64,000 bases of DNA from Miscanthus floridulus. Lineage: Eukaryota; Streptophyta; Magnoliopsida; Poales; Poaceae. Each line of letters starts with the position of its first letter. The first letter of the stretch is position 1. Below, one piece after another: positions 11,617 to 64,000 of the stretch. Made by a program: the position numbers and the translations under genes. The stretch lies in the NCBI RefSeq assembly GCF_019320115.1, contig NC_089585.1, positions 140,477,426-140,541,425 on the forward strand, given 5' to 3'. The notes under the pieces were generated by a model. It was not told the origin of the DNA. It made no database searches and saw nothing but the letters and a program-made list of their open reading frames with translations.

Positions 11617-11621
11617 TCTGT

Positions 11622-13220
11622 TGAAAGGATCTAACAATGCCTAGAGGGGGGTGAATAGGCGTATCAAAAAATTTACTGCAAATGCTAAGTTCAAATCTGT
11701 CAGTCAATGTCGGAAGTCCCGGCGTTTGGGTCAGAACTCCCGACGTTGTCAGAAGTTCTGGCGCAAACGTCAGCAGTTGCGACGCCTACGTGAACTACAA
11801 AAACAGTGTAAAATTTAACTTTGCGGATAAATAATCTTACAACCTCACTTCCTAGTGATTTGGTAAAGATGTTGGGTCACTCCCTTGACACCGTAATGCC
11901 TCCAAACAGTAGATCAAGTCCAAACCCTAAAATGAAAGTTTGGGAGACAAAGAGACAAACACATACAAGTAATCTCTAGCAATCATAACAACAAGCACAT
12001 GAGATACAAGGATTTGTCTCGAGGTTCGGCAACCCCACTAAGGAGCTCCTACGTCCTCGTTGTTGAGGTGACCACCAAGGTCGGAGTCTTTTCCACCTCC
12101 TTGCCTCTCTCAAAGCGATCACAAAGGTCACTTGAGCTTTCCACTAAGAAATCGAAGGGTGATACAAACTTCCTAAGGCTCTTCCACAAGATGGAAGCTC
12201 TTGGGCAACGCCTAGCCGGTTAGAGGCAAAGCCCCAAGAATAATAGATGCAAAATCAACCGGCTTGACGAAGAAATCAAGTGCTCAAGCTTGCCAAAGTG
12301 ATGCTCTCACTTAATCCACTCTTCTTTCACTCAAAACCCTAAGGGAATCAAAGATTAGAGCAAAGGGGGAAGGACAAGGGTGCTTTAGTTGCTTGGGAGC
12401 TGTTGAGCACGAAGTGGGTTAGCTATGAATGAGTCCGTAACGGTTAGAAGTGAAGAGAGTGGTATTTATACTCTAAGTAAAAATCTAACCGTTCAGATCT
12501 ACGTCGGAAGTTCCGACGCAGATCTCGGGACTTCCGACGTCAATAGAAAGAACTGTTCACACAGGGTCAGAAGTCCACGCGTGCAAGTTAATGTCGAAAC
12601 TCCCGGCAAACATCGGGACTTCCGACAGTCAAAAGTTTCGACGTACGTCGGGACTTCCGACGGTCGGAAGTGTCGACGTACGTCGAGACTTCCGACGAGC
12701 GCAGTTAAAATAGCCAGTAAAGCTCCAGGTGTTGGAACTCCCGACAAGCTTCGGGACTTCCGACGGTCGGAAGTTCCGACGTTCGTCGGGACTTCTGACG
12801 AGCACAGACAGCCAGACGGTCAGAACCACCGATGCCGGGACTCCCGGCTTGGGTCGGGACTTTCGACACCGACAGTCACAGAAAAAATAATCTACGTGCT
12901 CGTGGAGTGCTAGAGTGTCTCTCTTTTGATTTAATTATTATGCTCGAGCACTCTATCTTTCTCAGACCAACTAAATTTACATCCCTCTTTATAGTGCGGC
13001 GGATCCTAAACTCAAAAACAAAAATAAAACCTTTGGAGAGCGCTTTGAGTTCGTCCACCTTTACAACTTCAAAAATTGAGGGATACTATTTCATCTTTAT
13101 CAACTCTTTGATTCTTTCATGGGACTAATAGCTGCAACATATCTCATTAAGATCACATTAATCCCTAATTTGGATGTCATCAATACACCAAAACCCATAT
13201 ATGGGGCAAATGCACTTTCA
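11622..13220 (-). repeat. 3' LTR of the Sirevirus
   Basis: 1599 bp, TGAAAGGATC...GCACTTTCA as read on the plus strand. It matches the LTR at 26862-28430 along its length, with about 7 percent mismatch by eye over the first 240 bases. A TATA box (TATAAATA on the minus strand) is at 12463-12470. A cluster of short palindromes lies at about 12505-12870. Confidence 0.92.
12505..12870. repeat. Palindrome cluster in Sirevirus LTR
   Basis: GTCGGAAGTTCCGAC-like and CGTCGGGACTTCCGACG-like units recur about ten times with TACGTA and other spacers, so single strands can fold into many hairpins. CpG-rich palindromic blocks are known from the U3 region of maize Sirevirus LTRs. The partner LTR has the same block at 27745-28085. 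Confidence 0.8.
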
Positions 13221-22726: not shown

Positions 22727-24160
22727 TTAATGAGAATGACCTTGTGCTTCATTTGATCTCCCATCTTGATTATTTCTTATTGCGGAAGCTTCACCATGTT
22801 CATTGGATGAAACATGATGAATAGTTGGATCAAGATCATCATGCACAACATGGTCTTCATCTTCATCTTCAATGGGCTTTACTTTACCAATAACAAGCTT
22901 CTTGATTACTTCGTGTGGAGCTTCTTCATTACCTATATTCTCAACATTGACTTGCTCTTTTTGAGAGCCGTCGGTTTCATTAAAAGTCACATCTACCGCT
23001 ATTTCAATCAAACCGTTGGTTTTAATGAAAACACGATATTCATGTTTGTTAGTACCATAACCAAGCATGAAACCTTCATCAATCTTTGGTGCAAACTTAG
23101 AGCTTTTGGATTTCTTGTTAAGTATAAAACACGTGGATCCAAACACTCTAAAGTAGTGCACCTTGGGCTTTTTACCGGTTAGAAGTTCATAGGCGGTCTT
23201 TTCTCTTTTCTTGTGAAGGTATAAGCGGTTGATGGCATGGCATGCCATGTTGACCGCTTCCGCCCAATAGTTGGTTGGAGTCTTATACTCATCCAACATT
23301 GCTCTTGCGGCTTCTATGAGCGTTCGGTTCTTCCTATCCACAACACTATTTTGTTGTGGAGTGTATGGAACCGAAAACTCATGCTTGATTTCTTCTTCAT
23401 CAAGAAACTCTTCAATGTTGGTGTTCTTGAACTTTGTCCCGTTGTCACTTCTAACTTTCTTGATTTTGACATCAAACTCATTTTGGGCTCTTCTTGCAAA
23501 CTTCTTGAAGATACCTTGGACTTCACTTTTTTCACGCAAAAAGAATACCCAAGTGAAACAAGAATAATCATCAACAATTACAAAACCATATTTGTTACCA
23601 CCAATGCTTATGTAAGCGACGGGTCCAAATATGTCTATGTGAAGCAACTCCAATGGCCTTTTGGTTGTCACAACATTCTTGACAAGATGTTTAGCTCCAA
23701 CTTGTTTTCCCGCTTGGCATGCGCTATAAATCCTATCTTTCTCAAAAGAAATATTTGTTAGTCCAAGGATATGTTCACCCTTTTGAAGTTTGGCCAAGTT
23801 CCTTATCCCAACATGGGTAAGTCGGCGATGCCACAACCAACCCATGCTAGATTTTGCCATTAAACAAGTCTCGGGATTTACTCTATTTGATGTGAAATCA
23901 ACTAGATAGAGTTTCCCTTTTAAATGACCCGTAAATGCAATAGAAGAATCCTCCCTTCTATAGACTTCCACACCCTTATCCGTAAAGAGACAATTATAAC
24001 CCATTTCACAAAGTTGTGAAACGGACAACAAATTGTATCTCAACGAATTCACAAGTAAAACATTGGAAATGGAATTATCATTTGATATAGCAATTTTACC
24101 CCAAACCGAGGACTTCTCCTTTTCCATTATCACCAAACACAATATTTCCACTTTGATCAT
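22727..24160 (-). pseudogene. Sirevirus integrase with GAG-pre-integrase zinc domain
   Basis: Copia integrase, which joins element cDNA to host DNA. After the end of the protease region (LRYNLLSVSQLCEMGYNC), the HHCC zinc region reads WHRRLTHVG...YSACQAGK, where the first cysteine of the CxxC pair has become tyrosine. The core has HIDIFGPV (first Asp), VRSDNGTKF (second Asp) and NSVVDRKNRTLIEAARAML, where the catalytic glutamate is replaced by aspartate. GYGTNKHEYRVF and VDVTFNETD precede an acidic linker. The 477-codon frame is open but two key residues are changed, so it is probably inactive. Confidence 0.88.
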
Positions 24161-26844: not shown

Positions 26845-26861
26845 CTCGCTTTGATACCAAT
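26845..26861 (-). other. Primer binding site (initiator Met tRNA)
   Basis: The minus strand reads TGGTATCAAAGCGAGG directly after the 5' LTR end, complementary in its first half to the 3' end of plant initiator tRNA-Met. It fixes the orientation of the element. Confidence 0.85.
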
Positions 26862-28430
26862 TGAAAGGATCTAACAATGCCTAGAGGGGGGGGGGGTAAA
26901 TAGGCATATCTAAAAATTTACTGCAAATGCTAAGTTCAAATTTGTCAGTCAATGTCAGAAGTCCCGGCGTTTCGGTCGGAACTCCCGACGTTGTCAGAAG
27001 TTCCAGCACAAACGTCAGCAGTTCCGACGCCTACATGAACTATAAAAGTAGTGCCAAATTTAACTTTACAGATAAATAATCTTACAACCTCACTTCCTAG
27101 TGATTTGGTGAAGATGTTGGGTCACTCCCTTGACACCGTAATGCCTCCAAACAGTAGATCAAGTCCAAACCTGAAAATGGAAGTTTGGGAGACAAAGAGA
27201 CAAACACATACAAGTAATCTCTAGCAATCACAACAACAAGCACACGAGACACAAGGATTTATCTCGAGGTTCGGCAACCCCACTAAGGAGTTCTTACGTC
27301 CTCGTTGTTGAGGTGACCACCAAGGTCGGAGTCTTTTCCACCTCATTGCCTCTCTCAAAGCGACCACAAAGGTCACTTGAGCTTTCCACTAAGAAATTGA
27401 AGGATGATACAAACTTCCCAAGGCTCTTCCACAAGATGGAAGCTCTTGGGCAACGCCTAGCCGACTAGAGGCAAAGCCCCAAGACTAATAGACGCAAAAT
27501 CAACCGGTTTGACGAAGAAATCAAGTGCTCAAGCTTGCCAAAGTGATGCTCTTACTTAATCCACTCTCCTTTCACTCAAAACCCTAAGAGAATCGAAGAT
27601 TAGAGCAAAGGGGAAAGGACAGGGGTGCTTTAGTTGCTTGGAAGCTGTTGAGCACGAAGTGGGTTAGCTGTGAATGAGTCCGTAACGGTTAGAAGTGAAG
27701 AGAGTGGTATTTATACCCCAAGTGAAAATCTAACCGTTCAGATCTATGTCGGAAGTTTCGACGTAGATCTCGGGACTTTCGACATCAACAGAAAGAACTT
27801 TTCACACGGGGTCAGGAGTCCATGCGTGCAAGTTAATGTCGGAACTCCCGGCAAACATCGGGACTTCCGACGGTCGGAAGTTTCGACGTACGTCGGGACT
27901 TCCGACGAGCGCAGTTAAAATAGCCAGTAAAGCTCCAGGTGTCGGAACTCTCGACAAGCTTCGGGACTTCCGACGGTTGAAAGTTCTGACGTACGTCGGG
28001 ACTTCCGACAAGCACAGACAGCCAGACAGTCAGAACCACCGATGCCGGGACTCCCGGCTTGGGTCGGGACTTCCGACATCGACAGTCACAGAAAAAATAA
28101 TCTACGTGCTCGTGGAGTGCTAGAGTGTCTCTCTTTTGATTTAATTATTATGCTTGAGCACTCTATCTTCCCCAGACCAACTAAATTTGCATCCCTCTTT
28201 ATAGTGCGGCGGATCCTAAACTCAAAAGCAAAAATAAAACATTTGGAGAGCGCTTTGAGTTCGTCCACCTTTACAACTTAAAAAATTGAGGAATACCATT
28301 TCATCTTTATCAACTCTTTAATTCTTTCTTGGGACTAATAGCTGCAACGTATCTCATTAAGATCACATTAGTCCCTAATTTGGATGTCATCAATACACCA
28401 AAACCCACATACGGGGTAAATGCACTTTCA
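26862..28430 (-). repeat. 5' LTR of the Sirevirus
   Basis: 1569 bp partner of the LTR at 11622-13220. TATA box (TATAAATA on the minus strand) at 27708-27715, palindrome cluster at about 27745-28085, end CACTTTCA followed by the TCTGT duplication. A 12-base G run at about 26885 is longer than in the partner. Confidence 0.92.
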
Positions 28431-36648: not shown

Positions 36649-38984
36649 TGAAAGGGTCGAGATGGCGACTAGAGGGGGGTGAATAGTCTTTTTTAAAACT
36701 TAATCACGTTGGCTAACCGAAACAAGTGCGGAATTAAAACTATCGGTCTAGCCAAGACTACACCCCTCTATCTATATTCACTAGCACCTTGCAAAGATAC
36801 TAATCAAGCAAGAAAGGTGCCGGGCTAGCTAGAGCTCACCTAACCAATTCTAGGAGCAAGGTCACACAAACCTATGCCACTAGTACTTTAAGCAACAAGG
36901 GAGCTCCTACACATGCTAGTAAGCAAAAGCACAAAGCCAACTAAGCTCACTAGCAATGCTCAATAACAAGGCAACCAATGCCAAATTAGAGAGCGCAATT
37001 ACTTAGCTACACAAACTAAGCAATGTGACTAACAAGGTTACACAAACCAAATTAGTCATGCAAGGGAGCTACTTCTATGCTACACAAGCAAGAAGGTAAC
37101 TAGCAAGCTACACAAGCTAACTAATTAGAAAAGCAACAACACAAGCTCAATGTATATGAATGTAATCGCAAGCTTGTGTAACGAGGATGCAAACCAATGG
37201 GAAGAACAAGGTTGACACGATGATTTTTCTCCTGAGGTTCACGTGTTTGCCAACATGCTAGTCCCTATTGTGTCGGCCGCTCACTTGGTGATTCAGCGGC
37301 TAATTGGCATCACCCGTCAAGCCCGCACGTCGGGTGCCGCAAGAACCTACCCCGGAAGTGAGGGTAGCTCAATGACATGCTTTACTAAAGTTGCTCTTTG
37401 CGGCTCCCGCGGGGCGAGCACAATGCCCCTCACAAGCTCCTCTTCGGAGCGCCACACAAGCTTCTTGCGGGCTTCCACAGAGACCACCACCAAGCCATCT
37501 AGGAGGCGACAACCTCCAATAGTAACAAGCACCACCGGCTTGCAACTCGATCACCTAGTGCCACTCGATGCAACCTCACGATGCAATCGCACTAGAATCG
37601 CCCACTCACTCAATCGGATGATCACTATCAAGTATGTGTGAGATGGAGGGCTCCTAAGCACTCTCAAACATGGACACAAAGTCCTCCGAGGTGCTCACCT
37701 TCCGGCCCAAGGCCGACCATGGCTTCTATTTATAACCCCACAAATAAATAGAGCCGTTACCCCTTCATTGGGCGTTTTTCGGGTCGACTGGACGCAGCAC
37801 CGGACGCACCGATTGTGAATACCGGACCACCATGTGTCCAACCGTTGCCTCCAACGGCTCTCTGACAAGACGACCGGGCGCTCAGCACGAAACGACCGGA
37901 TGCTCAGCCGCTGTGTCTGGTCGAGTCCAGTAAACCTCCAGGGCCGATCGGACGCGTCTGTTAGAAACTGACCGGACGCTGAGCCTCAGCGTCCGGTCGA
38001 GTACAGTAAGCACCCACCGACGACCAGACGCGTTCGGTCACACTGGACCGGACGCTGCCAGCGTCCGATCGACTGTTCCACCGAACACCGATTTTGCTGA
38101 TTCACACCGGACGTGTCCGGTCGCTGAGTACGTCACCAAATACCGGACGTGTCCGGTCACCATACCGGACGCGTCCGGTCACTCTGTGACCAGCGCGACT
38201 AACTATTTTTCACCTCTAACTTCTTCACCCTTACTCAAATATGCCAATCACCAAGTGTATCACCTTGTGCACATGTGTTAGCATATTTTCACAAACATTT
38301 TCAAGGGTGTTAGCCACTCAACTTGCCACGCCACTCGATCCTAGCGACGATGCAAAGTTAGATCACTTGAGTGGCACTAGATGACCGATATGCAAACAAG
38401 TTTGCCCCTCTTAATAGTACGGCCATCTATCCTAAACCCGGTCATGAACTTCTCTACACACCTATGACTGGTGAAATGAAATGCCCTAGGTTATACCTTT
38501 GCCTTACGTATTCCATTCCATCTCCTCCAATGTCGATGCAACACATGCACCAACACGATCAACAATGATATGATCCACTTCATATCATAACGTGATCATA
38601 TTGGTTGATCGATCTTGACTTCACATGCTCTTCACCGTTGCCATCGTCCATCAGCGCCAAGTCTTGCTCAAGCTTCACCGCCACGCGGTCCATCGCTCCA
38701 AAGCCTTCGACTTGCCCTCCACGCTTGCAACTGGCCCATCAAGCCAAGTCTTGTCTTGATCTTCTCCACCTTGATCACATGACTCAATGTCATGTCTCAT
38801 GTGCAATGAGCTCCTTCATCTTCACATGTGTGAGCTTTGCAACATCTCCAAGCCATTTACACCTTCATGGCATATGTTGCTCACACACATGTGTCTGTGG
38901 ACTAATTACCTGTGTATATCATATAAACACAATTAGTCCACCTAGGTTGTCACTCAATTACCAAAACCACACAAGGACCTTTCA
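36649..38984 (-). repeat. 3' LTR of the gag-only element
   Basis: 2336 bp. It aligns with the partner at 44490 with about 4 percent mismatch over the first 240 bases by eye. TATA box (TATAAATA on the minus strand) at 37727-37734. ACCGGACGCGTCCGGT-type palindromes cluster at about 37790-38185. Confidence 0.9.
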
Positions 38985-42332: not shown

Positions 42333-44438
42333 TCATCCACTTTTTGATGGTAGCCAAACTAGTTTGGGTCCTCTGAAGTTAGGAGCAACATACTTAGGCA
42401 ACGCCTTAGTATGAATAGCGGGATGTTTTGCAATTGAAACCAATGAGGTACCATTGCCATCCTTCCTAAGCATAGAATCATCATCAATTGAAATAGACTT
42501 AGGAGTGTTACCTAGGGGACATGAATGTGTCATGTGTCCCCTTTCTCGACATGAGTAGCACTTTCTCTTTGCTTGAACATTCTCTTCTTTGCTCATGTGG
42601 TGCTTCTCATTGCCTTGCCTCTCATGGATTGCTTGAGCCTTCTTCTCAAGCTTGGTAGGACACTTAGAGGCAAAGTGTCCCATACTTCCACACTTGAAGC
42701 ACTTGATGTGAGCATAATCTTTCTTCTCATCTTCATTCTTGCTCATCATCTTGGCATCTTGAGTTTGCATTGGATGCCTTGCCTTTCCACCCCTTCTTGT
42801 TTTTTTCTTCTTTATCATCAAATCACTACCATCTTCATGGTTGATCTTGATTTGAACTTGGGGTGCAATCTCTTGCTCAACTTGTGGCTTTGGTTGAGTC
42901 TTCACTTGTTGCTTCACCAATTGCTTGGTTGGGCACATTGAGGTAAGGTGACCCCAAGTGCGGCACTTGAAGCACTTGACATGCTTGAGCCTCTCTTCTT
43001 CTTTCTTCAACTTGAGCTTTTCTTCATTGGGGCAACCATTTGCAAGATGTCCCACTTCATAGCACTTGAAGCACATGAAATAAGAGAGCTTCTCTTGTTC
43101 TTGCTTCTTCATCTCTCTTTCATATCTTCTCTTGCCTCATCTTTTGCCCTTGATCTTGCTCTTGTTGAAGCTAATGCCACTTGTGTCGTTGTGGCTTTCT
43201 TGATGATTGACTTTGCTAGTCTTGAAGCCGACTCCACTCTTATCACCAAAGTTTCTTTGAGTCTTCAACATATGCTCAAAGGTGACTTGAGAGTTGTAGC
43301 ACCTCTCTAACTTGTTGCTCAATTTCTTCACTTGTTCATTTAGCTCATTGTTCTCCTTCAAAAGGTTAGTCTCACAAGACATAGGAGTAGAACAAGCATC
43401 TATATGTGAAGAGCATGGCATATCTAATAAATCATCACAAGAGGTGGATACATGCTTCTTGCCTACATCATAAGGGTTAGCAATAATATGTGATTGATCA
43501 ATTGACCCATGTGATGAACTCTCATTATTTTTAAGTTTCTTGATAAACATTTTAATGAGAGAAGCATGTTGTTCTAATAATTCATCATGAGATGCAAGTA
43601 GTGTCTCATGATTCAATTTAAGCTCATCATATGAAGATTTATAAGCATCAAGTAAGTCTTTATGTTCTTCACAAGAGTTCTTTAGAAATGAGTTTTCATT
43701 TTCTAATTTCAATGTTTTAGCTTTCTCATTTTCTAAAGACATGGTCATGCTAGCAAGTCTACTAACAAGCTCATCATATGAATCAACATGATCAACCACA
43801 TTATCATTTGATACCTTGGTGTCACCTTGTGGCATGAAGCAATGTGGTGTGGTTGGAGAGCATGTAGTAGCATCTTCATCATGGCTTTAGCATGAACCAT
43901 CATTACCATCAAGTGTGCATGGGGTAGCATCATCACTTGCAACACTTGTGGCATCATCATCAACCTTGTCAAGTGAACTTGTAGTTGATTGATCATCATC
44001 ATCATCACTTGACCATGAGGTGGAGTAATCTTCCACAATCACCAAATTGTGGTTATACTCAACACACTCATGCGCCTCCTTCTTTGGTTCATTCTCCTTC
44101 TTGAATTTACCATCATCCCATGTGGAGGAATCACCGAAGGTTTCCTTGATGGACTCCCATATCTCACGAGCAGTTCCCTTGATGTTTACTTATTTTATCA
44201 AATCAAAGCTTAAAGCATCCATTAGAAAACAACAAGCATGTGCATCAAATTTATAGAGAACTCTTTGAGCTTTGGTGAGATTTCTATGGTCCAAGACATG
44301 GGTGAGACCACTTGTGACAACCCACCAAAATTTAGGTCCCTTTGCATGAAAATGATCAAGCATGTGATTTTTCCAAAGTGCAAAGTTTGTGCCATAAAAA
44401 ATGTGTGCCTCACAAACATCTAGCCCATTAGACGCCAT
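42333..44438 (-). pseudogene. Sirevirus Gag with four CCHC zinc knuckles
   Basis: One reading frame of 702 codons from 44438 to 42333, broken only by three in-frame stops (TAA 44192-44190, TAA 43889-43887, TGA 43139-43137). The N-terminus has GTNFALWKNHMLDHF and PKFWWVV, a Sirevirus Gag/UBN2 start. Next come an acidic Asp-rich stretch and a coiled coil (LASMTMSLENEKAKTLKLEN, YDELKLNHETLLASHDEL, LKENNELNEQVKKLSNKLE). Then four knuckles follow: CFKCYEVGHLANGC, CFKCRTWGHLTSMC, CFKCGSMGHFASKC and CYSCRERGHMTHSC, each CX2CX4HX4C with long basic linkers. Plant copia Gag usually has one knuckle, so four is unusual. It ends after LPKYVAPNFRGPKLVWLPSKSG-type residues (last 20 of the frame shown loosely). 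Confidence 0.85.
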
Positions 44439-44489: not shown

Positions 44490-46909
44490 TGAAAGGGTCG
44501 AGATGGCGACTAGAGGGGGGTGAATAGTCTTTTTTAAAACTTAATCACGTTTGCTAACCGAAACAAGTATGGAATTAAAACTATCGGTCTAGCCAAGACT
44601 ACACCCATCTATCTATGTTCACTAGCACCTTGTAAAGATACTAATCAAGCGACAAAGGTGACGGGCTAGCTAGAGCTCACCTAACCAATTCTAGGAGCAA
44701 GGTCACATAAACCTATGCCACTAGTACTTTAAGCAACAAGGGAGCTCCTACACATGCTAGTAAGCAAAAGCACAAAGCCAACTAAGCTCACTAGCAATGC
44801 TCAATAACAAGGCAACCAATGCCAAATTAGAGAGCACAATTACTTAGCTACACAAACTAAGCAATGTGACTAACAAGGTTACATAAACCAAATTAGTCAC
44901 GCAAGGGAGCTACTTCTATGCTACACAAGCAAGAAGGTAATTAGCAAGCTACACAAGCTAACTAATTACAAAAGCAACAACACAAGCTCAATGTATATGA
45001 ATGTAATCGCAAGCTTGTGTAACAGGGATGCAAACCAATGGGAAGAACAAGGTTGACACGATGATTTTTCTCCCGAGGTTCACATGTTTGCCAACACGCT
45101 AGTCCCTGTTGTGTCGACCGCTCACTGGGTGGTTCGGTGGCTAATTGGCATCACCCGCCAAGCCCGCACGTCGGGCGCTGCAAGAACCTACCCCGGAAGT
45201 GAGGGTAGCTCAATGACACGCTTTACTAAAGTTGCTCTTTGTGGCTCTCACAGGGCGGGCACAATGCCCCTCACAAGCTCCTCTCCGGAGCACCGCACAA
45301 GCTTCTTGCAGGCTTCCATAGAGACCACCACCAAGCCATCTAGGAGGTGACAACCTCCAAGAGTAACAAGCACCACCGGCTTGCAACTCGATCACCTAGT
45401 GCCACTCGATGCAACCTCACGATGCAATCGCACTAGAATCGATCACTCACACAATCGGATGATCACTATCAAGTATGTGTGAGATGGAGGGCTCCTAAGC
45501 ACTCTCAAGCATGGACACAAAGTCCCCCGAGGTGCTCACCTTCTGGCCCAAGGCCGACCATGGCTTCTATTTATAACCCCACAAACAAATAGAGCTGTTA
45601 CCCCTTCACTGGGCATTTTTCGGGTCGACCGAACACAGCACCGGATGCTGCACCGAACGCACCGATCGTGAATACCGGATGTGTTCGGTCGCTATACCAG
45701 ACATGTCCAGTAGCTGCTGGACCGCCACATGTCCAACCGTTGCCTCCAACGGCTCTCTGACAAGACGACCGGACGCTCAGCACGAAACGATCGGACACTC
45801 AGCCGCTGTGTCCGGCCGAGTCTAGTAAACCTCCAGGGCCGACCGGACGCATCTGTTAGAACCTGATCGAACGCTGAGCCTTAGCGTCCGGTCGAGTATA
45901 GTAAGCACCCACCGACGACCGGACACGTCCGGTCACACCAGACCGAACGCTGCCAGCGTTCGATCGACTGTTCCACCGATCCACTGAACACCGATTTTAC
46001 TGATTCACACCGGACGCGTCTGGTGTGGCGACCGAACGCGTCCAGTCGCTGAGTACGTCGCCAAATACTGGACGTGTCTGGTCACCATACCGAACGCGTC
46101 CGGTCACTCTGTGACCAGCGCAACTAACTCCTTTTCACCTCTAACTTCTTCACCCTTGCTCAAATGTGTCATCCACCTAGTGTATCACCTTGTGCACATG
46201 TGCTAGCATATTTTCACAAATATTTTCAAGGGTGTTAGCCACTCAACTTGCCATGCCACTCCATCCTAGCAACGATGTAAAGTTAGATCACTCGAGTGGC
46301 ATTAGATGACCGATATGCAAACAAGTTTGCCCCTCTTGATAGTACGGCCATCTATCCTAAACCCGGTCATGACCTTCTCTACACACCTATGACTGGTGAA
46401 ATGAAATGCCCTAGGTTATACCTTTGCCTTGCGTATTCCATTCCATCACCTCCAATGTCGATGCAACACATGCACCAACACGATCAACAATGATATGATC
46501 CACTTCATATCATAACGTGATCATATTGGTTCATCGATCTTGACTTCACTTGCTCTTCACCGTTACCATCGTCCATCGGCGCCAAGTCTTGCTCAAGCTT
46601 CACCGCCACGCGGTCCATCGCTCCAAAGCCTTCGACTTGCCCTTCACGCTTGTAACCGGTCCATCAAGCCAAGTCTTGTCTTGATCTTCTCCACCTTGAT
46701 CACATGACTCAATGTCATGTCTCATGTGCAATGAGCTCCTTCATCTTCACATGTGTGAGCTTTGCAACATCTCCAAGCCATTTACACCTTCATGGCATAT
46801 GTTGCTTACACACATGTGCCTGTGGACTAATTACCTATGTATCTTATATAAACACAATTAGTCCACCTAGGTTGTCACTCAATTACCAAAACCACACAAG
46901 GACCTTTCA
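44490..46909 (-). repeat. 5' LTR of the gag-only element
   Basis: 2420 bp, 84 bases longer than the 3' LTR, mainly because the palindrome block (about 45635-46110) has extra CGGACGTGTCCGGT-type units. TATA box at 45568-45575 (minus strand). Confidence 0.9.
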
Positions 46910-52930: not shown

Positions 52931-53126
52931 GTAGGCTGATGGTCAGGCCCATCTCCGCTGGCCTCACAGACATGCCTTCCCCTCCATGAAACAAGAAGGG
53001 TCCTAACCCCTGCAAGGATGAGCGGGTACCTATCAGCATATCCTCGCTCTCTAGGTCATCACACTCGGTGTCGTCGACTACCTCATCGTTATCTTCCTCG
53101 TTATCATCGTCACTGTCAGTGTTCTC

Positions 53127-56100
53127 TGTAACAGAACCGACCAATTATACGAAATTAAGTAAGAAACTCATCCGCCAGAGCAGACGCTTTAGCAAACTTA
53201 AGCCCGTATAACCCAGTAGTCCGTGAAATCACGAAAGATTTCAAACCAACTTCCATTCCAGCCAAGATCGTAATAAGTTTTGCGGTCACCATCATATTTT
53301 ACATAAAAGTTCACAATCTCAGATACATTAGAGTTTCAACATAGTTATTACAAACCAGTTCGAATAAAAGTAGCGGAAGTCATTTGTTCAAACCACACAC
53401 ACACACTCACGCAGAGTTTAAATATAGTGCCAGCGAATGATCATCTCCAACAAAAGCATCAGACGAGACGTAAGGAATGACCATGCCCATGGTCCTAAGC
53501 ATCACCCATCGCAGGATAAAGGCAGTTGATACAGTAGCCGTAATACATCTGCCCATCTGCAACAAGTGGGAATAAAACCCTGAGTACGAGAAGGTACTCA
53601 GCTAGACTTACCCGACATAACCGAAAATAAGTGACACCAAGGATTATGAAGGGCTTTATAGTAGGGTAGCTGACTCATTTGCAAAAAGAAGCATTTTTAG
53701 CATTTCAAGAACCTTTCTAAAAGCATTATTGCCAAGTTAATTATTATTAACCTGTCCACTAGATTTGCACCTATACTAGAGTAAACATGTGATTAAGCAG
53801 ATAATGATAACCAATGATCATTAAACAACTTCCATACTGCCATATTCATTATAACTGTCCAAGTGTTCCATAAACATTTACTACGATGAAGTCACTCAAG
53901 TCAAGTGCTCACTATCCAGGAGCGATGGCGATTCGAATCGATTCCTAACCAGCTGGTGATTTATTCCTTACACAAACCTCACTCACCCGCTAAAGTGAGA
54001 TATTGATCACCGAGTCAACTTTCCAAGAATCTCGAGTTTGCTAGGAACCACATGTACCCGGGGGCTGACCGACTACACTTTGGTCTTATCATCCCGCCCC
54101 CGTGTCCTACCACACCTGCTCCGGCACAGTGCGCTGCGGGCAATCTACTCGGCCCGAAAAATCTCCCAGCTTCGCGGTCGGAAGGTACCTTATCCGGCCA
54201 GCTAAATGTAAGGCATGCGTTCAACATGACTCGAGGCCCAACAACGGTCGGTCCTTAATCGACACAGACGGAAACACTACAGTCCAAAACTCTGCAAGTC
54301 TTCGTCCGGTCTCAACTTCATTTAACACTTAGTTATACCATGACTTCATAGTCATCCAAACAGATCCAGGTAACCACCTATAGCTCGCAGGTGACAGGAA
54401 ATCACCTGACTTCTACCGGTCTAAGCCAGCTAAGCATTGACTCGACTGCGGATACCAGGGTAACAAGGATATAGTATAACAAAGGTAAACAAGGTATAAT
54501 GCAGCAACGGTTGCAAACAACTCCTGAACGTAATGCATCAATTAAGTAAAGCATTTAATTAAATAATTGCAAACCGGGAGAAAAATGCTCCGGGGCTTGC
54601 CTCTCTCGAAGGAGCTCGGACGGTGATCGAGGCACTCTGGAAGTTCCTCAACGTCCTCCTCGTCGGCTTCTGGCACTTCCTGCGGCTACACCTCGAGCTG
54701 CTCCTCGGGCTCCTCGGGTATGACGACTGGGTTCTCGGGTTGCGATCCTGTATGATGCAATGCGCGTAAGTGATTATGCAAACGGTGCATCGAAGGAGAC
54801 GAATGCAATGGATATGTTTAAATGCAAGGTAGTCAACATCATCCAAGAAACTATACTACAAGCACATGTCATCTACTGCATTCTCTTCTACTACTAATAT
54901 GTTAAGTCAACATATCTTATGAAATGCCTCAAAGATACACCAAAGATATTATTATTAACTAATCTTGTATTAAAGATGATTATTTTATTTCCTTTTTAAT
55001 TAGGGCTACAACAGCAATCTATATTTTTGGTGCTTATAAAAATCTGAGAAAATTACAGTAGCATGGTACTACTCTAATTAGCCTACCATCGGATTTTCAT
55101 GGTGTTTGAATGAGTGAATTAGCCTACACAAAAATCACAAACTATGGCATGATTTTGTACATAAAAATACTTTGAACTGTGAAAAGTGTCAAACAACAGA
55201 ATTAATATTTTTACTAGGTTCTTCATAGCATAGAATGACTGTACAAAAATTATCACATGCATGTTTTATACAAAATTTGTTCTCTAGCAAAAATAACAAA
55301 AATCAGCCATTAAAGGTACTTGAACTACACCTAAAACTTTTCCCACAGCACATGCATGAAACATATTTTTCCTAGGAAGTACATGACATAAGAAGATTAT
55401 CAAACTTGAAATCATATTTTTCTGAAGCCTATAGATTTTTCTACACATTTTTCAAGTTATCAGCAATATACATGATTAAATAAAATCCTACAGAAAAGTA
55501 TCAAAAAATGACATGCAAAAATTTTTACCAAGTAGATCTGATGATAAGGAACCTAGCAAAATTTGTTTCAACAAATTTGGAGCAAATTTGAGCACCCAAA
55601 CATTTTTCAAACAATTTCAGATTTCAAATAATAAAGAATAAGTGAAAACAAATCATTTAAACAATGATGGGCCGGCCCGCGGGGAACAGCTGGCCCATGG
55701 CAACATCTGGCCCGCGCGGTCCGAGCGAAAAGGGAGCGCGGCGGCCTGGCAGGGCCTCGGCCCACGGCCGCTTTCGGCCTAGCCGGCCTAGCTGGCTGAG
55801 GCAGAGTGCCTCACCGATGTGCGCGCTGGCGCGGCGGCGTGGCTCGGCCAGCGGCCGGCGGCCATCTCCGGCCACGGCAGGGCGAGCTGGCGAGCGCACG
55901 GGATGTGCGAGGAGAAGGCGAGTGCAGTAGGGTAGCTAGGCGAGGCTGGAGAGGAGAAGGAAGACAGCTGCCATGGCGGCCGAGCACGGTGGCGCCATGG
56001 CCGTCGGTGGCGAGATGCGGGGAGGCCCGACCTGTGCTCGGAAGGCGGCGCAAGCTCGAGCGCGACTTGAAGGAGGGCGAGGCGGAGTTGCGGGCGCGGC

Positions 56101-56992
56101 GAGGGCGGAGCTTGGGGCTCTCGGCTCTGGAGGAGAAGGAAGGCAGCTTGGGCGGGAGTGAGCGAGCGCACGGGCATCAGTAGTTGAAGGCGGGCGCGTG
56201 GGCACAGTGTCAGGCCGCGGCTGCCGCGCGGCGGGCGACGCCGGCACATGGTCGCCACGCGGCGAGAGCTTCCTTACGCGGTCGTGGTGTGGCGCGGCGA
56301 CTGGCGCGGCGCGCGGGAGAAGGAGCCAGCGCACGGGGCTGGGCTGGGCCGAGGCGAGGTGGGCTGGCGCGGGAGGCGCGCTGCTGCAGGCGGCTTCGCT
56401 GGCGCGCTGGGCCAGCTTCGGCAGACGGGCCAGAAACGAGGCGGCGGCCCGATAAGGAGGGAAAAAACATTTTTCATATATATTTTCAATGAATTTTTAC
56501 ATGCTATCTTTAAATTATTATTTTGAGCAAGAAAATGACCTCTTTTAAAAATGTATCAAAAATGAAAGTTGCTTAGAATTTAATTCTCTACAACTTTGCT
56601 TTTATGACCAAAGCCAAATTCTTTCTAGATTTTGAATTGTAACATCAAAGTCCACGTTTAGCTCAAAACCCTAATTTTTAAAATTTATTTTTGAAGCCAA
56701 ATTTTTGAATTAATTTGAATACAAACATTGCTCCAAAAATTGAACTAAACATTGCTAGATGATTTACAATAGTAGCCAAACATGTTTTACTAATCTAGCA
56801 AGAAAAATTCAGGGCAAAACAATTCTTAAATAGGTGTATGCAACATTCAGGTTTTATGCATGTTTCAGATGTTTCAAAGCAATGTTTCAATTGGTATTCA
56901 CATGATTAAGCATGTATGATTTGGATGCTTGATGATGCATGATATGCGTGATTTGCAGTGCCTAAATGTAGGCATAACACCGGGGTGTTACA
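53127..56992 (-). repeat. 3' LTR of the chromovirus
   Basis: 3866 bp, TGTAACAGAACC...GGGGTGTTACA as read on the plus strand. The left part (53127-53471) repeats at 63656-64000. The region 55670-56460 is very GC-rich and holds overlapping ORFs in all frames with no family signature. No functional gene is supported in the LTR. Confidence 0.9.
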
Positions 56993-59900
56993 GCCCTCCC
57001 CCCTTATAAAAATCTCGTCCCGAGATTTGGGTTACGAACCATTTGTTATAAAATTCTTCATAAGCTTTTTGTAGATACTCTCCTGTTTCCCAAGTTGCAT
57101 CTCCCTCATCATGATGATCCCACTGTATCTTGTATGTTTTCACCACACTATTCCAAGTAGCATGTTCTTTAGTGTCTAACACTCGGACTGGTTGCTCACG
57201 ATACACCAAATCTGATTTGAGTTGAATACCTCTAGGTTCTATTCTTTCCTCCAGAACACGCAAACATTTCTTGAGATGTGATACATGGAAAACTAGGAAA
57301 ACTGTACTCATTGTCTCAGGTAACTCTAACTTGTAGGCTACCGGACCTCTTCGTTCCAAGATCTTGTATGGTCCTACGAATCTTGCGGCAAGCTTTCTTC
57401 GGATTCCAAACCTTTTCTTCTTCATTGGCGTGACTTTCAGATAAACATAGTCACCAACTTCAAATGCAAGGGGTCTCCTCCTTTTGTCTGCATAGCTTTT
57501 CTGACGTGATTGGGCAGCTTTCATATTCTGCTGAATAATATGAACTTTCTTCTCGGCTTCTTCTACAAAGTCAATACCATAATACCTTCTATCACCAGGC
57601 TCGACCCAATTCAATGGTGTTCTACATTTTCTACCATATAAAGCTTCGAATGGGGCCATCTTGATGGTTTCTTGATAGCTATTATTATAAGAAAACTCGG
57701 CTAATGGTAACCAAGACTCCCATGATCCCTTAGAAGACAATACACAGGCTCTTAATATATCCTCCAAAACAGCATTCACTCGTTCAGTCTGACCATCTGT
57801 CTGAGGATGATAAGCGGTACTGCGAATCAAACTAGTTCCTAAGCCTTTGTGTAAATGTTCCCAAAAATGAGCCGTGAACTGTGAGCCTCTATCAGATACT
57901 ATGGTCTTTGGTATACCATGCAACCTCACAATTTCTGCGACATACTTCTCGGCATATTGAGGTGGTCGATAAGTTGTTTTGACAGGTAGGAAATGAGCGG
58001 TCTTGGTAAGACGATCCACAATTACCCAAATCGAATCATGTCCTTTTGGGGTAGTGGGCAAACCCGTGATAAAATCCATACTGATATCGTCCCACTTCCA
58101 ACTAGGGACTGATAAGGGTTGCAACATACCGGTAGGTTTCATGTGAATGGCTTTCACTCGACAACATGTGTCACATCTGACAACATATGCTGTAATTTCT
58201 TTCTTCATTTTGGTCCACCAATAGCGAGATCTTAGTTCTTGATACATCTTACTACTTTCTGGATGGATAGATAGCTTAGAAAGGTGAGCTTCATCCATGA
58301 GTTTATTCCTAAGCTCTCGATCCTTGGGAACCACAAGACGGTTGTCAAACCACAACACGCCCTGTTCATCCACTTTAAAGTGTTGAGACGGCTTTTCTTT
58401 TATTTTCTCTTTGATGTGGAATATCCCCTTGTCGGTTTTCTGGCCTTCTATTATCTTACTCTCCAAAGAACAACTAATCTAAATACTATGTAACACAGCA
58501 GGATGCATTAGATCGAACCCATCTTCAAGTAATGGCTGCACATTCAAGTAATGTGACTTTCTGCTCAAAGCATCTGCCACTACATTGGCTTTACCAGGAT
58601 GATATTGCACATTCAAGTTGTAATCCTTTATCAATTCCAACCATCTGCGCTGTCTCATGTTTAGCTCTGGTTGGGTAAAGATATACTTAAGACTCTTGTG
58701 ATCCATGAAAATATTGCACACATTACCAAGTAGATAATGTCTCCAAATTTTGAGGGCGTGCACAACTGCAGCAAGTTCAAGATCATGTGTTGGATAGTTG
58801 ACCTCGTGCTTTCTCAATTGACGTGATCCATAAGCTATGACTCTCCTTTCTTGCATAAGAACACAACCCAATCCAGTATTCGATGCGTCGCAAAACACAT
58901 CAAATGGTTTCTCGATATCTGGTTGTGCTAGAACAGGAGCAGTGGTCAACAGTTTCCGCAAAGTGTGGAAAGCTACTTCACACTCCTCTGTCCACACAAA
59001 CTTGTGATCCTTCTGTAGGAGGCTCGTCATCGGTTTGGCAATCTTCGAGAAATCTGGTATAAAGCGACGGTAATAACCCGCTAGTCCTAAGAAACTTCTA
59101 ATCTCCGAAACTGTGGTCGGTGCTTTCCAATTCATAACTTCTTGCACCTTACTTGGATCGACTGAAACTCCATTCTCTGACAGAATGTGACCAAGGAAAG
59201 GAACTTCCTTCAACCAGAATTCGCATTTGCTAAACTTAGCATACAATTGATGATCTCTAAGTCTGGTCAAGACAGTTCTCAGATGCTCTTCATGATCTTT
59301 CTCGTTCTCGGAGTACACCAGAATGTCATCGATGAACACTACCACAAATTTATCCAATTCTGGCATGAAAACGGTATTCATCAAAAACATAAAGTATGCA
59401 GGAGCATTTGTCAAGCCAAAAGACATGACAAGATACTCATACAACCCGTATCTAGTGGAAAATGCAGTTTTTGGTATATCCTGTGGCCTAATCTTGATCT
59501 AATGATAACCGGATCTCAAATCTATTTTTGAGAACACCTTGGCCTTGGATAATTGGTCAAACAGAACATCAATATGTGGCAAGGGATATTTATTCTTGAT
59601 GGTCACGGCATTGAGTGGCCTATAATCTACGCACATTCTCAATGTGCCCTCTTTCTTCTTTTTCACAAATAAAGCGGGACATCCCCATTCAGACTTGCTT
59701 GGCCGAATAAACCCCTTTTTTGATAGATCTTCTAATTGCTTCTTCAGCTCAGCTAACTCATCTGGAGGCATCCGATAGGGCCTCCTTGAAATCGGGGCTG
59801 TTCCGGGGACTAGCTCAATTCCAAACTCAATCTCCCTATCTGGCGGAAGACCAGGTAGCTCATTCGGGAATACATCCAGGAATTCACACACTACCGGAAT

Positions 59901-61517
59901 CTGATGAATAGGAATGACTGCCATAGCACATGTAACACTTATAAGGTCTGTTCTCTGAGGCAATGGTACTTGGAAAGTACCCTCACCTAGGGGATCCTTA
60001 AGGGTAAGTACTCGACTTCCAGTATCTATGACTGCTCCCCAATCCTTCATCCAATTCATCCCTATAATGACATCCAAAACTAATCCAGGCATAACTATCA
60101 AGTTCACTCGGAACTTCCTGCTACCTAATTCAAGGGTTGCCCCTCGAACCATCCGATTGGTCAAAACATCAGCCCCTGCTGAACTTATATGGTAACCATA
60201 ACCCAATTCTGTGCATAGTTGTTCATGTTTCTGTGCAAATGCTTGACTCATAAAAGAATGCGATGATCCAGAATCAAATAGAACAACTGCAGGGTTTTCA
60301 TTGACAGGAAACTTACCAGCAGTGATGGGCTCTCCCTCTGGAATTTCATCCACTGTCGTACTATGCACTCTAGCATTATAAGTCTGCTGCTTCTTCTTGG
60401 GCGGGTATGGACAAAACCTCGAGAAATGACTGGGCTGATCACAGTTATAGCAGGGTCCTCTTACTGTCCCGGCAGATCCCACAGCTCCTTTGGAACTGCC
60501 TTGTACCGCAGTTGCGACTGCTTTGTTGGGCTGTACTGCCATCTTGTATGGCTTTTGAGGTCCACGGAAATTCTGACTTCTTGGCTGAGGTGGCCTGAAT
60601 CTAGCACCAGGTGCCGATGGGCGATATGGAGGACGACCTCCCATAGGTGCTCTAGCTTGAGACGGCCCACCTTCAAAGGCTCTCTTGCGTGTCTTGGCTG
60701 CGGTGCTGGCGTTGTTATTCTTCTCCTGCTTCAGACAGTCGCTGATGAAGTCATTGAATCTGACGCGGTTGTTGGTACCAACATGCTTCATCATTTTTGG
60801 ATTGAGACCCCTCTTAAAGCTGGCTATTCTTTTAGCATCTGTGTCAACCATGTCGGGAGCATAGCGACACAAGTTGTTGAAGGCATGCAGGTATTGCGTC
60901 ACAGTTTTGGTGCCCTGGTTCAACGCCAGAAACTCTCCCAACTTCATTTCGGTCAGCCCGGGTGGAATATAGACTCCACGGAAGGCCTCAGCAAACTCTC
61001 TCCAAGAAATCTGAGCATTTGGAGGGAAGGTGGTGCGATGGTGCTTCCACCACATTCCCGCCGGTCCTTGCAATTGAAGTGCAGCATATTCCGTTTTCAG
61101 CACCTTAGTCATCCTCAACACACGGAATTTATCTTCCATCGTGTTGATCCATTCCTCAGCATCGAGTGGCTCTGTTGCTTCCTTGAATACTGGCGGCCTA
61201 GTGTCCATGAAATCTTTGAAGCTGCTGTATTGGTTCACTCCCATGCCACCACCTTGATTGTTACCACGTTGAACGTTGTTGGCGATGGTCCGAAGGAAAT
61301 CTTCCATGTTCTTCTGAGATTGTTCCGCGTTGCGCTGACTCCCGAGTAGCTGTGCGAGGAACATCTCGGGGGTAAACGGGGGAGGAGGTGGCAAATGCGG
61401 TTCATGGGGAGGTTCATTATTGTTGCCGTGGTTTCCACCACCACCACCAGTCCCCGCACCGTTGGCACCGGGCTCAGTGGCCTCATACGTGGTTCGGTGA
61501 GTGTTTGTCATCTGCAT
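56988..61517 (-). pseudogene. Chromovirus Gag-Pol polyprotein with two amber stops
   Basis: One frame of 1510 codons from the ATG at 61517. Gag: [41 protein letters not shown] and a CCHC knuckle [14 protein letters not shown]. Protease: [36 protein letters not shown], then TAG at 59501-59499 in SGYH-IKIR, then [11 protein letters not shown] (catalytic). RNase [14 protein letters not shown] and [11 protein letters not shown]. Another TAG at 58481-58479. Integrase: HLSKLSIH...CDTCCRVK zinc, then MDFITGLP, VSDRGSQF and YHPQTDGQTERVN with D, D and E present. C-terminal chromodomain-like tail: VRVLDTKEHATWN, YKIQWDHHDEGDATWE. Apart from the two TAG codons I see no lesion. Its own stop (56990-56988) lies inside the LTR. 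Confidence 0.92.
56993..57007 (-). other. Polypurine tract inside the pol coding end
   Basis: The minus strand reads ATAAGGGGGGAGGGC just before TGTAACACC. It encodes the last residues (KGGG) of pol and primes plus-strand synthesis at the same time. Confidence 0.85.
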
Positions 61518-61875: not shown

Positions 61876-62865
61876 CTACTCCTTAGGGCCATCGTCAGGA
61901 TCAGAGACGTCACCATCGCCCCTAGGTGAGACTGCAGGCTCGTCCTGGTTGTCGTCGTCAATGTCCATGCCAGCGGCGTTCGGTGGAGCATATGGGCCAA
62001 CCCCATTGTAGAGCGCGTGAAACTCCTCGTGCAGGTTGCCATTGTATTCCTCTAGCTCATCGACTCTCTGCAGCAGAAGGTTTCTTGCGTTCCAGGCTTC
62101 ATTCCTCTCCTGAACCAACTGTCCAATCATGCGGTCTGCATTGTTGTTGGCTTGAGTCAACGTATGCACTCGCTGCATAGCTCTATCACCTCTCTCAACC
62201 GCCTGATCTCGCTGTAAGTTCATATCAGCCAACTGCTCCTGCAAGCTAGCTATAGCATGTGCATGTCTCTTCTTCTGCTTCTTCCCTTTGAGCTTATCCT
62301 CACTACGCAAGCCAGTCAAAGTCCAGTAGGTACTCTCGAGACCCTCATATGCTCTGATGGCGGCGAACATAGCACTCATTGCCTGGTTGTCGCTAGCCTA
62401 TCCTTCAGCTGGACCTCTGACTAACGCACTTCCTCGAGGCTGAACCCAAATGGCATCACGAGGATCATCTCTAGGAAAAGTACCAGCCAGAGCTGCAGCA
62501 AGCTCATTGGGAAATCTGCTCATAATGTCCCTGATGACACGGAAGGCTGCTCCCTCTGCACCCTCAGCTAGAGTGCGACCCTCAAACTCCAAATGCCAAC
62601 CATCCCAATCTGGAGCATCACTGAGAGCAGGAACCGTGATCTCCACCACTGTGAGTCCATCCTCTGCTAACTGGCTCTCATTCCAAGAGTACACCGGCTC
62701 TTGACCCTTTGGGTATCCCACATCATGGAGCACTCTCCAAAGCAAAGTCGACATGCCAAATTCGCTCAAGAAGGTGTCCATGGTGCGGTGCTCCCTCAGG
62801 GCCAACGGACGTCGGGGTGCTCTTCCTTCGGTGGACTTACGAGCGGTCTGCTTCGTGCGGGCCAT
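61876..62865 (-). pseudogene. Extra ORF with histone H3 N-terminal tail mimic
   Basis: Not a known retrotransposon domain to me. The frame runs from the ATG at 62865-62863 to 61876 (330 codons) with one TAG at 62400-62398. After Met it reads ARTKQTARKST, identical to H3 residues 1-11, and continues similar to H3 residue 21 with only four changes (G12E, K14R, K18R, Q19P), keeping K4, R8, K9, S10, T11, A15, P16 and R17. ALRE-R follows, like the H3 alpha-N start, but the histone fold is absent. Residues ~30-155 form an unknown domain (WRVLHDVGYPKGQEPVYSW, DWDGWHLEFEGRTL, AFRVIRDIMSRFP). After the stop come a coiled coil (IASLQEQLADMNLQRDQ, QLVQERNEAW, RVDELEEYNGNLHEEF) and an acidic tail (MDIDDDNQDEP). 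TTTTGCTACAG just before the ATG could be a splice acceptor. I infer binding to histone-tail readers or writers. Confidence 0.8.
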
Positions 62866-63637
62866 CTGTAGCAAAAGTTCTTTTATTACCTCGGGGAAAC
62901 ATATTTTAGGTGATACAACTTTTATCAAAAGGAGATAATCAATTTATAAGGGGAGGAATGCATGACATGAATGAAATGCACAAGTAACATGATGTATGTA
63001 TGTGCCGTACGTTCTCGCAAACTTAGGAAATAAATAAGTTCTAACGACGAATTCGGTGGCATACAGACGGTCTCTTAAATACGTAGCTAATACGTTCTAC
63101 ACGATAGCGTTGTTATGTACCTGCAGAAGATTCATTTCAGCCCAATTCCCAATGAATGCATAAAAGCAGTAAAGTTTTATCTACACGCTCTACACGAATC
63201 CCCAGATACGTGTACAACGGTAGTAACTACCCGAACCATCGTCCTATTGACGGCATCGCCTCCACAGACGGAAGACCCATACATGAGATACCTTTGTAAA
63301 ACATGCGTAGAACATGTAATTACTCTAGCACCATAAAAGCATTCACCCTAGATCGATGGTGTATCCGATCATGCTCTCACAGCTCACACTTACCGATGTG
63401 TAGAGGCAATTGATCCATACATTACCACTCAAACAAGTGGCACTCATACAATAGCACGCCGTATGAGCGACGAAAGAGAAATATGATGCAAGAACCCCAG
63501 TCAGTACTTAATTAAGCCACCTAAAATCCTTAACTGGGCATAAAGGATATGATCACTGGCACACTTTATAGTTTTAAAATCACGTTTTCCAAATGCCTTT
63601 TTGTTTTAAATACACTTGTGAACAGTAACATGCTAAA
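62866..63637 (-). other. 5' untranslated leader of the chromovirus
   Basis: About 770 bases between the primer site and the extra ORF. No ORF is supported on either strand. A leader intron is possible because the extra ORF starts right after an acceptor-like sequence, but no donor was assigned. Confidence 0.45.
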
Positions 63638-63655
63638 CCATGCTCTGATACTAGC
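63638..63655 (-). other. Primer binding site (Met tRNA) of the chromovirus
   Basis: The minus strand reads GCTAGTATCAGAGCATGG directly after the 5' LTR end GTTACA; AGTATCAGAGC matches the complement of the 3' end of plant initiator tRNA-Met with small changes. Confidence 0.8.
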
Positions 63656-64000
63656 TGTAACAGAACCGACCAATTATACGAAATTAAGTAAGAAACTCAT
63701 CCGCCAGAGCAGACGCTTTAGCAAACTTAAGCCCGTATAACCCAGTAGTCCGTGAAATCACGAAGGATTTCAAACCAACTTCCATTCCAGCCAAGATCGT
63801 AATAAGTTTTGCGGTCACCATCATATTTTACATAAAAGTTCACAATCTTAGATACATCAGAGTTTCAACATAGTTATTACAAACCAGTTCGAATAAAAGT
63901 AGCGGAAGTCATTTGTTCAAACCACACACACACACACTCACGCAGAGTTTAAATATAGTGCCAGCGAATGATCATCTCCAACAAAAGCATCAGACGAGAC
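63656..64000 (-). repeat. 5' LTR of the chromovirus (partial, cut by window end)
   Basis: 345 bases starting TGTAACAGAACC, matching 53127-53471 except for about three substitutions and one extra CA unit. The remaining ~3.5 kb lies past the window. Confidence 0.92.

Follow-up and report, generated by a model that had tools for sequence, protein, structure and literature searches.

A histone H3-like tail at the N-terminus of ORF0 in a Ty3/gypsy retrotransposon of Miscanthus floridulus, a probable H3K9 mimic

In the genome of Miscanthus floridulus, a minus-strand LTR retrotransposon occupying the final 11 kb of the 64,000-nucleotide stretch of DNA analyzed here (the window) carries an additional open reading frame, ORF0, between its 5' LTR and gag, and this frame opens with the N-terminal tail sequence of histone H3. 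Comparison of many copies and relatives suggests that the tail was very probably acquired from H3 and kept by selection, and it is considered likely that it serves as a functional mimic of H3K9, whichever use is made of it. ORF0 has already been published for the Retrosat2 group of elements; among the results viewed from searches of open-access literature, none mentions an H3 tail in such a frame. Grass retrotransposon ORF0 was described no later than 2012 but has been given no convincing function, and a selected H3 tail gives it a testable role. If this reading is true, a mobile element has appropriated part of the same histone that serves to silence it. The presence of tail-bearing and tail-less subfamilies within one genome permits direct comparison, and a natural series of tail variants is available for H3K9 writers and readers.

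Architecture of the element and its leader

According to the open reading frames and Pfam matches, the parts of the element follow the order of a probable primer-binding site, ORF0, gag-protease-RT, RNase H, integrase, and a weak chromodomain. The features are as follows, in window coordinates.

63655..64000 within the window, extending to 67583 (window numbering) beyond its end, minus strand: 5' LTR, GAGAA-flanked
63642..63650, minus strand: probable primer-binding site, TATCAGAGC
63388..63396, minus strand: donor-like TCGGTAAGT, a putative 5' splice site for an intron in the leader
62866..62876, minus strand: splice-acceptor-like TTTTGCTACAG adjoining the ORF0 ATG, from conservation of its AG
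62398..62865, minus strand: first part of ORF0, with an in-frame stop at 62398-62400
62794..62865, minus strand: Met and H3-like tail (H3 1-23), exact at H3 1-11 and identical at 17 of 21 positions
62476..62760, minus strand: dsRBD-like domain, residues 36-130, as modelled (AlphaFold2; VIA-align)
61876..62379, minus strand: in-frame second part of ORF0, with a coiled coil and an acidic terminus, on evidence including the fold of a natural relative
59499..61517, minus strand: gag, zinc knuckle, protease, and start of RT, with the gag ATG at 61511
58479..59444, minus strand: remainder of RT and RNase H, a separate ORF in the window copy
56988..58466, minus strand: integrase, a separate ORF in the window copy, with a weak chromodomain match at 57045-57152
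53126..56992, minus strand: 3' LTR, with a GAGAA target-site copy immediately outside

The LTRs are about 3.9 kb in size, starting with TGTAACACC and ending with CTGTTACA, and the GAGAA on both sides represents the target-site copies. The LTR pair exhibits 96.7% identity, with 67 mismatches in 3929 aligned columns, and this divergence, assuming 1.3e-8 substitutions per site per year, suggests an insertion age well under a million years. The primer-binding site TATCAGAGC is one that we take to be of the initiator tRNA-Met type. In the window copy, gag-pol is split over three ORFs and ORF0 contains one in-frame stop, while an uninterrupted ORF0 of 353-355 aa is found in many copies of the same genome. 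The Pfam matches run in the order gag, protease, RT, RNase H, integrase, and chromodomain, the chromodomain match being weak (E 0.08). The element fits a chromovirus (Ty3/gypsy) of the Tekay type; the long LTRs and the chromodomain agree with this label of the initial annotation, but its basis is architecture rather than an RT tree.

Elsewhere in the window, two long direct repeat pairs of about 91.5-91.8% identity are located at 36649-38984 and 44490-46909 and at 11621-13220 and 26861-28430, and two minus-strand open frames resemble, by eye, part of a copia-type integrase (22727-24160) and a protein with repeated zinc knuckles (42333-43112). An open frame of 328 aa antisense to gag (60363-61349, plus strand) is probably mechanical.

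The leader contains 22 ATGs in the interval from the LTR to ORF0, so that its splicing would help. Copies of the element in its own genome were read in four groups, namely A (the window type, 30 copies), B (the P0064 type, 21), C (7), and D (4). An AG stands immediately 5' of the ORF0 ATG in 61 of the 62 copies read, taking the form TTGCTACAG in 48 of them, and the sole exception, L042, is out of register at the ATG; in the tail-less copies read, GGTACAG directly precedes the ATG in three of three. The ATG, for which an intronic position had been raised as a concern, does not look intronic, as it directly follows this conserved splice-acceptor-like AG. The donor-like site near 63393 is kept, in varied form, in L009, L064, and L059 and is altered in L070. 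The gag ATG is likewise preceded by CAG, in the context ATATGCAG, and alternatively spliced messages could therefore express both ORF0 and gag. At 63120 on the minus strand, the leader sequence TGCAGGTACAT, in which an acceptor-like end is followed by a donor-like start, is kept in A and B copies and looks like a recursive splice site.

The tail, its distribution, and the residues retained

The ORF0 ATG at 62865 (minus strand) opens MARTKQTARKSTEGRAPRRPLALREHR, which gives the N-terminus M-ARTKQTARKSTEGRAPRRPLA, and the first 11 residues after Met match H3 exactly. This run, ARTKQTARKST, corresponds to mature H3 1-11 as initially annotated; a recount likewise bears out the identity of 17 of 21 positions to H3, and K14 and K18 are both Arg in the window copy. 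Such a match is not attributable to chance, as an exact 11-mer at one fixed place has a probability of about 3e-14 in a naive estimate from general residue frequencies, and histone H3 entries are the top matches of a phmmer search against PDB sequences (best E 9.8e-5). The ORF0 part gives no Pfam histone match and its modelled domain is dsRBD-like, which is consistent with the annotated lack of a histone fold. Across 30 near copies, the window copy included, residues 1-6 and 8-10 are invariant, 29 copies carry A and one carries T at position 7, and 29 carry T and one carries I at position 11; position 12 is G in 28 and E in two, the G12E of the window copy not being the usual state.

Three protein searches returned 129, 1014, and 561 matches, 120 of which were listed for each, and the pooled lists comprise 231 distinct relatives, almost all of which come from ENA or JGI sets. 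Among these listed relatives, the H3 tail is present in 37, in addition to the window copy (36 by score, plus P0170, which fell below the cut-off and was included manually). A short start without the tail is seen in 13, and the other 181 are uninformative, either through starting too far downstream or for another reason. The third query was deliberately devoid of the tail, guarding against a biased search, and its 120 listed matches include 28 with the tail, 13 tail-less, and 79 uninformative proteins. The usual family form is ARTK(Q/L)TARKSTGGRAPR(H/R)QLA. In the 2.68-Gb own genome, where first-look candidates numbered 8608, 9240, and 8513 in overlapping lists, window-type copies match from residue 1 in 150 of 150 scored and, with P0064 as the query, 148 of 150 scored copies do so; P0153 as the query added 11 more diverged, mostly broken copies. 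The tail is thus a family trait, and the objection that other copies might lack it fails for the tail-bearing subfamilies.

Scans of IMG/VR viral contigs with P0002, P0064, and P0150 found no relatives, and plasmid sequences gave no match. A scan of GTDB contigs with the window ORF0 yielded seven loci matching the tail only (residues 1-24 to 1-31), six of which translate into histone H3 sequence and the remaining one into an H3-like tail, which serves as a useful control. These loci, L001-L007, lie in GTDB metagenome bins named as bacteria that carry eukaryote-type histone H3, probably through contamination.

In a tree of 51 rows, rooted for display only, the 13 tail-less proteins form one clade with a support of 100, interrupted by P0099 alone. 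With the tail-less P0197 as the query, 150 of 150 scored copies in the own genome match among 9942 candidates, and the three copies read from this search are all tail-less; the tail-less clade is therefore also high-copy, and the tail is optional for the success of an element. L059, P0099, and P0229 are apparent recombinants that join tail-bearing and tail-less-type sequence, either as a leader of tail-less type before a tail-bearing ORF0 start or, in P0099, as a tail before a tail-less-type domain.

The tail residues differ in their retention. In an alignment of 38 rows (the window copy and 37 relatives), picked by a loose measure of H3 likeness that 9 of 21 identities passed, K9 is present in all 38 rows, S10, A1, and A7 in 36, T3 and T6 in 35, R2 in 34, and R8 in 33. 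K4 is found in 29 rows, with Arg in eight and Trp in one. The other lysines are mostly lost: K14 is kept in two rows and K18 and K23 in none, the replacements being mainly Arg for K14 (32), His (23) and Arg (9) for K18, and Arg for K23 (32). Among 14 representatives less than 80% identical in the domain, K9 is retained in 14 and K4 in 10. The contrast between K9 and the Arg sites may be partly mutational, because K9 is encoded by AAG, which has no CpG, and CGN Arg codons decay in methylated elements. It is conceivable, if rather unlikely, that the H3-like N-terminus has another use, such as nuclear import, chaperone binding, or PHD/K4-reader binding, in which K9 is not the point; A1, R2, and T3 also show high retention (36, 34, and 35 of 38), but K4 is replaced in 9 of 38 rows and K9 never, which favors the H3K9 mimic.

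The tail also evolves slowly. The mean site rate (LG+G4) is 0.53 in H3 1-12 versus 1.08 at the other 87 sites, and only 2 of 20000 random 12-site sets are as slow; among later contiguous windows of sites, 5 of 76 are equally slow, every one in the FLxEFGMPTLLWRVL region. Where the domains of a pair share 20-45% identity, mean tail identity is 75% versus 38% for the domain, and tail identity exceeds domain identity in 280 of 281 such pairs. For the closest pairs (domain at least 80% identical), the tail exceeds the domain in 64 of 87.

Selection at the DNA level and origin of the tail

K4, K9, and S10 are present in all 62 own-genome copies read. Between groups A and B, pS and pN are 0.416 and 0.012 in H3 1-12, 0.717 and 0.175 in H3 13-21, 0.878 and 0.616 in the linker, 0.836 and 0.175 in the FLxEF block, and 0.740 and 0.337 in the domain. 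Of the 348 stop-free A-B pairs (29 A and 12 B copies), 193 differ in H3 1-12 by four synonymous and no nonsynonymous codon differences (Fisher p 0.0036) and 49 by three and one (p 0.057), p values that hold for a single comparison, as all pairs share one divergence. The A-B difference in H3 1-12 amounts to 0.014 at codon positions 1+2 and 0.342 at third positions; third positions vary freely and positions 1+2 do not, and the amino acids are therefore the target. In the noncoding leader, the A-B difference in 100-base bins from -600 to -100 is 0.115, 0.273, 0.175, 0.224, and 0.215, followed by 0.181 at -100 to -50, 0.456 at -50 to -10, and 0.081 in the final 10 bases (L059 was excluded from B in the leader and codon-position comparisons). 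The A-B leader and tail are less diverged than the rest of ORF0, which suggests recombination between subfamilies, and A and B are thus not fully independent witnesses.

The remaining comparisons give pN/pS ratios for tail 1-12 of 0.21 (A-C), 0.29 (B-C), 0.40 (B-D), 0.45 (A-D), and 0.60 (C-D); the C and D copies are old and partly broken, with a pN/pS of about 0.5, and these comparisons are less clean. Within A, pN/pS is 0.25 for tail 1-21 and 0.12 for domain 31-155. The mimicked residues are hence conserved beyond neutral expectation, and neutral drift, which had been put forward as an objection to the mimic, does not describe the tail-bearing subfamilies, where purifying selection acts on the tail amino acids. 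An accidentally picked up, functionless H3 exon, whose N-terminus might serve only the start of translation or splicing, is consistent with the thriving of tail-less relatives, the drift of old copies, and the adjacency of the tail to a splice-acceptor-like site that could constrain nearby bases. This explanation is nevertheless improbable, as the pattern of free third and fixed first and second positions between A and B indicates that amino acids are targeted, and an invariant K9 together with replaced K14, K18, and K23 is not expected from a splicing constraint. Acquisition from H3 followed by selective retention therefore remains the strongly favored account.

Regarding the source, H3.1-type genes of the own genome are intronless (three read; of 54 matches at E <=1e-20, 18 are perfect over 136 residues), and the H3.3-type genes contain introns (four read). 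The first coding exon stops after residue 23 in four of four H3.3-type loci, in L090 after a one-base shift, with exon borders placed by GT...AG and reading frame rather than by transcripts. The likeness of the element tails to H3 extends as far as residue 21, with Arg replacing K23 in 32 of 38 rows and no clear similarity further on. Over codons 1-21, the nearest gene is of the H3.3 type for every group (A 0.787, B 0.808, C 0.735, and D 0.734), versus best H3.1-type values of 0.713, 0.763, 0.690, and 0.683, respectively. At third positions, A scores 0.56-0.61 to L090-L092 but only 0.295 to L093, and 0.37-0.39 to the H3.1 type; the corresponding values for the H3.3 and H3.1 types are 0.51-0.55 versus 0.28-0.42 for B, 0.48-0.50 versus 0.36-0.37 for C, and 0.45-0.57 versus 0.42 for D. 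In L093, TTAATTAATGCAG directly precedes the ATG of the first coding exon, apparently as the end of a 5'UTR intron, and the other three loci lack such a CAG; since CAG-ATG is found in one of the four H3.3-type loci and is shared by tail-less elements, the left border is not diagnostic of the source. These data are most simply read as uptake of the first coding exon of an H3.3-type gene, although they are not proof of it. A basic unstructured N-terminus might instead have converged on H3 without transfer of a histone gene, acquiring the same mimic function, given that short linear motifs can evolve and known viral histone mimics are mostly short; this is very improbable, because the likeness spans 21-23 residues in H3 order, including G12, G13, P16, L20, and A21, and third positions are mostly nearer to H3.3-type genes.

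Possible uses of the tail and comparison with known systems

The domain that follows the tail has a dsRBD-like fold, alpha-beta-beta-beta-alpha as in the dsRBD superfamily, in two predicted models; for the window domain, this comes from an AlphaFold2 model and VIA-align. Foldseek alone is weak for it (best E 6e-3), the window part and eight relatives match neither dsRBD nor any other Pfam family in this domain, and a structure search of BFVD returned no match at E <=0.001. In dsRBDs, the RNA-contact motif is KKxAK at the last helix; (S/T)KKxA(K/R) occurs, at any position, in 1 of the 231 relatives, and the domain is probably protein-binding rather than RNA-binding. The predicted fold is shared with TRBP dsRBD3, Staufen dsRBD5, Loquacious dsRBD3, plant DRB7.2/DRB4, and DCL4 dsRBD2; unlike these protein-binding dsRBDs, the ORF0 domain is without a Pfam match and is placed after an H3 tail.

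Plant H3K9 silencing factors include SUVH methyltransferases, CMT3, and H3K9me readers. In the proposed mechanism, ORF0 would long ago have gained the part of a host H3.3-type gene equivalent to its first coding exon (from Met to roughly residue 23), placed before a dsRBD-like, coiled-coil protein. Splicing of a leader intron at CAG-ATG would let translation start at the ORF0 ATG, and removal of Met before Ala would expose A1-R2-T3-K4...K9. The coiled coil may multimerize the protein, presenting several H3 tails as substrate and ligand for H3K9 silencing factors, and this decoy would weaken the silencing of the element, while the dsRBD-like domain may provide a docking surface for DRB proteins, Dicer-like proteins, or components of the element. 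A decoy, as opposed to a tether, is the most likely single use, although it is put forward tentatively. A fuller version, which is possible but doubtful, would make the tail a locked H3K9 mimic from an H3.3 exon, with K9 invariant and positions 14, 18, and 23 neither acetylatable nor ubiquitinatable, and the protein a multivalent antagonist of both the H3K9me/CHG-methylation loop and the DRB/Dicer small-RNA pathway.

A tether is less likely than a decoy. Under that explanation, heterochromatin readers would hold the K9-methylated tail and bring the element nucleoprotein to H3K9me2 chromatin, and the tail might, with the same limited likelihood, compensate for the loss of most of the methyl-lysine cage from the integrase chromodomain. 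PMC3350952 describes plant group II chromodomains, Tekay included, as lacking Y24 and usually Y48, the chromodomain match of the window integrase is weak, and the coiled coil and dsRBD-like domain could connect to the element's own parts. Against this, ORF0 is not known to contact integrase, Gag, or RNA, and the tail-less clade manages without the tail. The tail has also been considered as a ligand for the element's own chromodomain, but group II chromodomains are without two of the three cage residues.

Histone mimicry exists in some viruses and host enzymes, such as influenza NS1 and G9a, among others. These are also non-histone proteins with an H3-tail-like sequence and a methylatable Lys; they are mostly short motifs, whereas an exact match of 11 residues, and similarity over about 21, stands at the extreme N-terminus of ORF0. 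Among mobile elements, Gao et al. (2012; PMC3485330) describe the ORF0 of Retrosat2, RIRE3, RIRE8, ZMsat2, Sorsat2, and Brasat2 as a fast-evolving frame upstream of gag-pol in Ty3/gypsy elements with LTRs >3 kb, reported there from grasses only, for which hydrolase-like or other enzyme functions are inferred; the word "histone" has no occurrence in PMC3485330 and likewise none in PMC7264820. The window element shares with the Retrosat2/RIRE elements the LTR of >3 kb and the extra ORF before gag-pol, and the LTR ends are similar in kind (TGTCACACCC in PMC3485330, TGTAACACCCC in the window element), a likeness in architecture. VANC of VANDAL DNA transposons, according to PMC10398659 and PMC5735166, counteracts host epigenetic silencing, as is proposed for ORF0; VANC works by sequence-specific DNA binding, with no histone-like tail mentioned in the opening lines of the two abstracts, whereas the role of ORF0 is inferred. 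H3L, carried by a hAT transposon of Pyrenophora tritici-repentis (PMC3538342), is likewise a case of a mobile element with histone H3 sequence; H3L is a histone H3-like protein with the globular domain in a DNA transposon, whereas ORF0 has the tail only, fused to another domain, in a retrotransposon and across many subfamilies.
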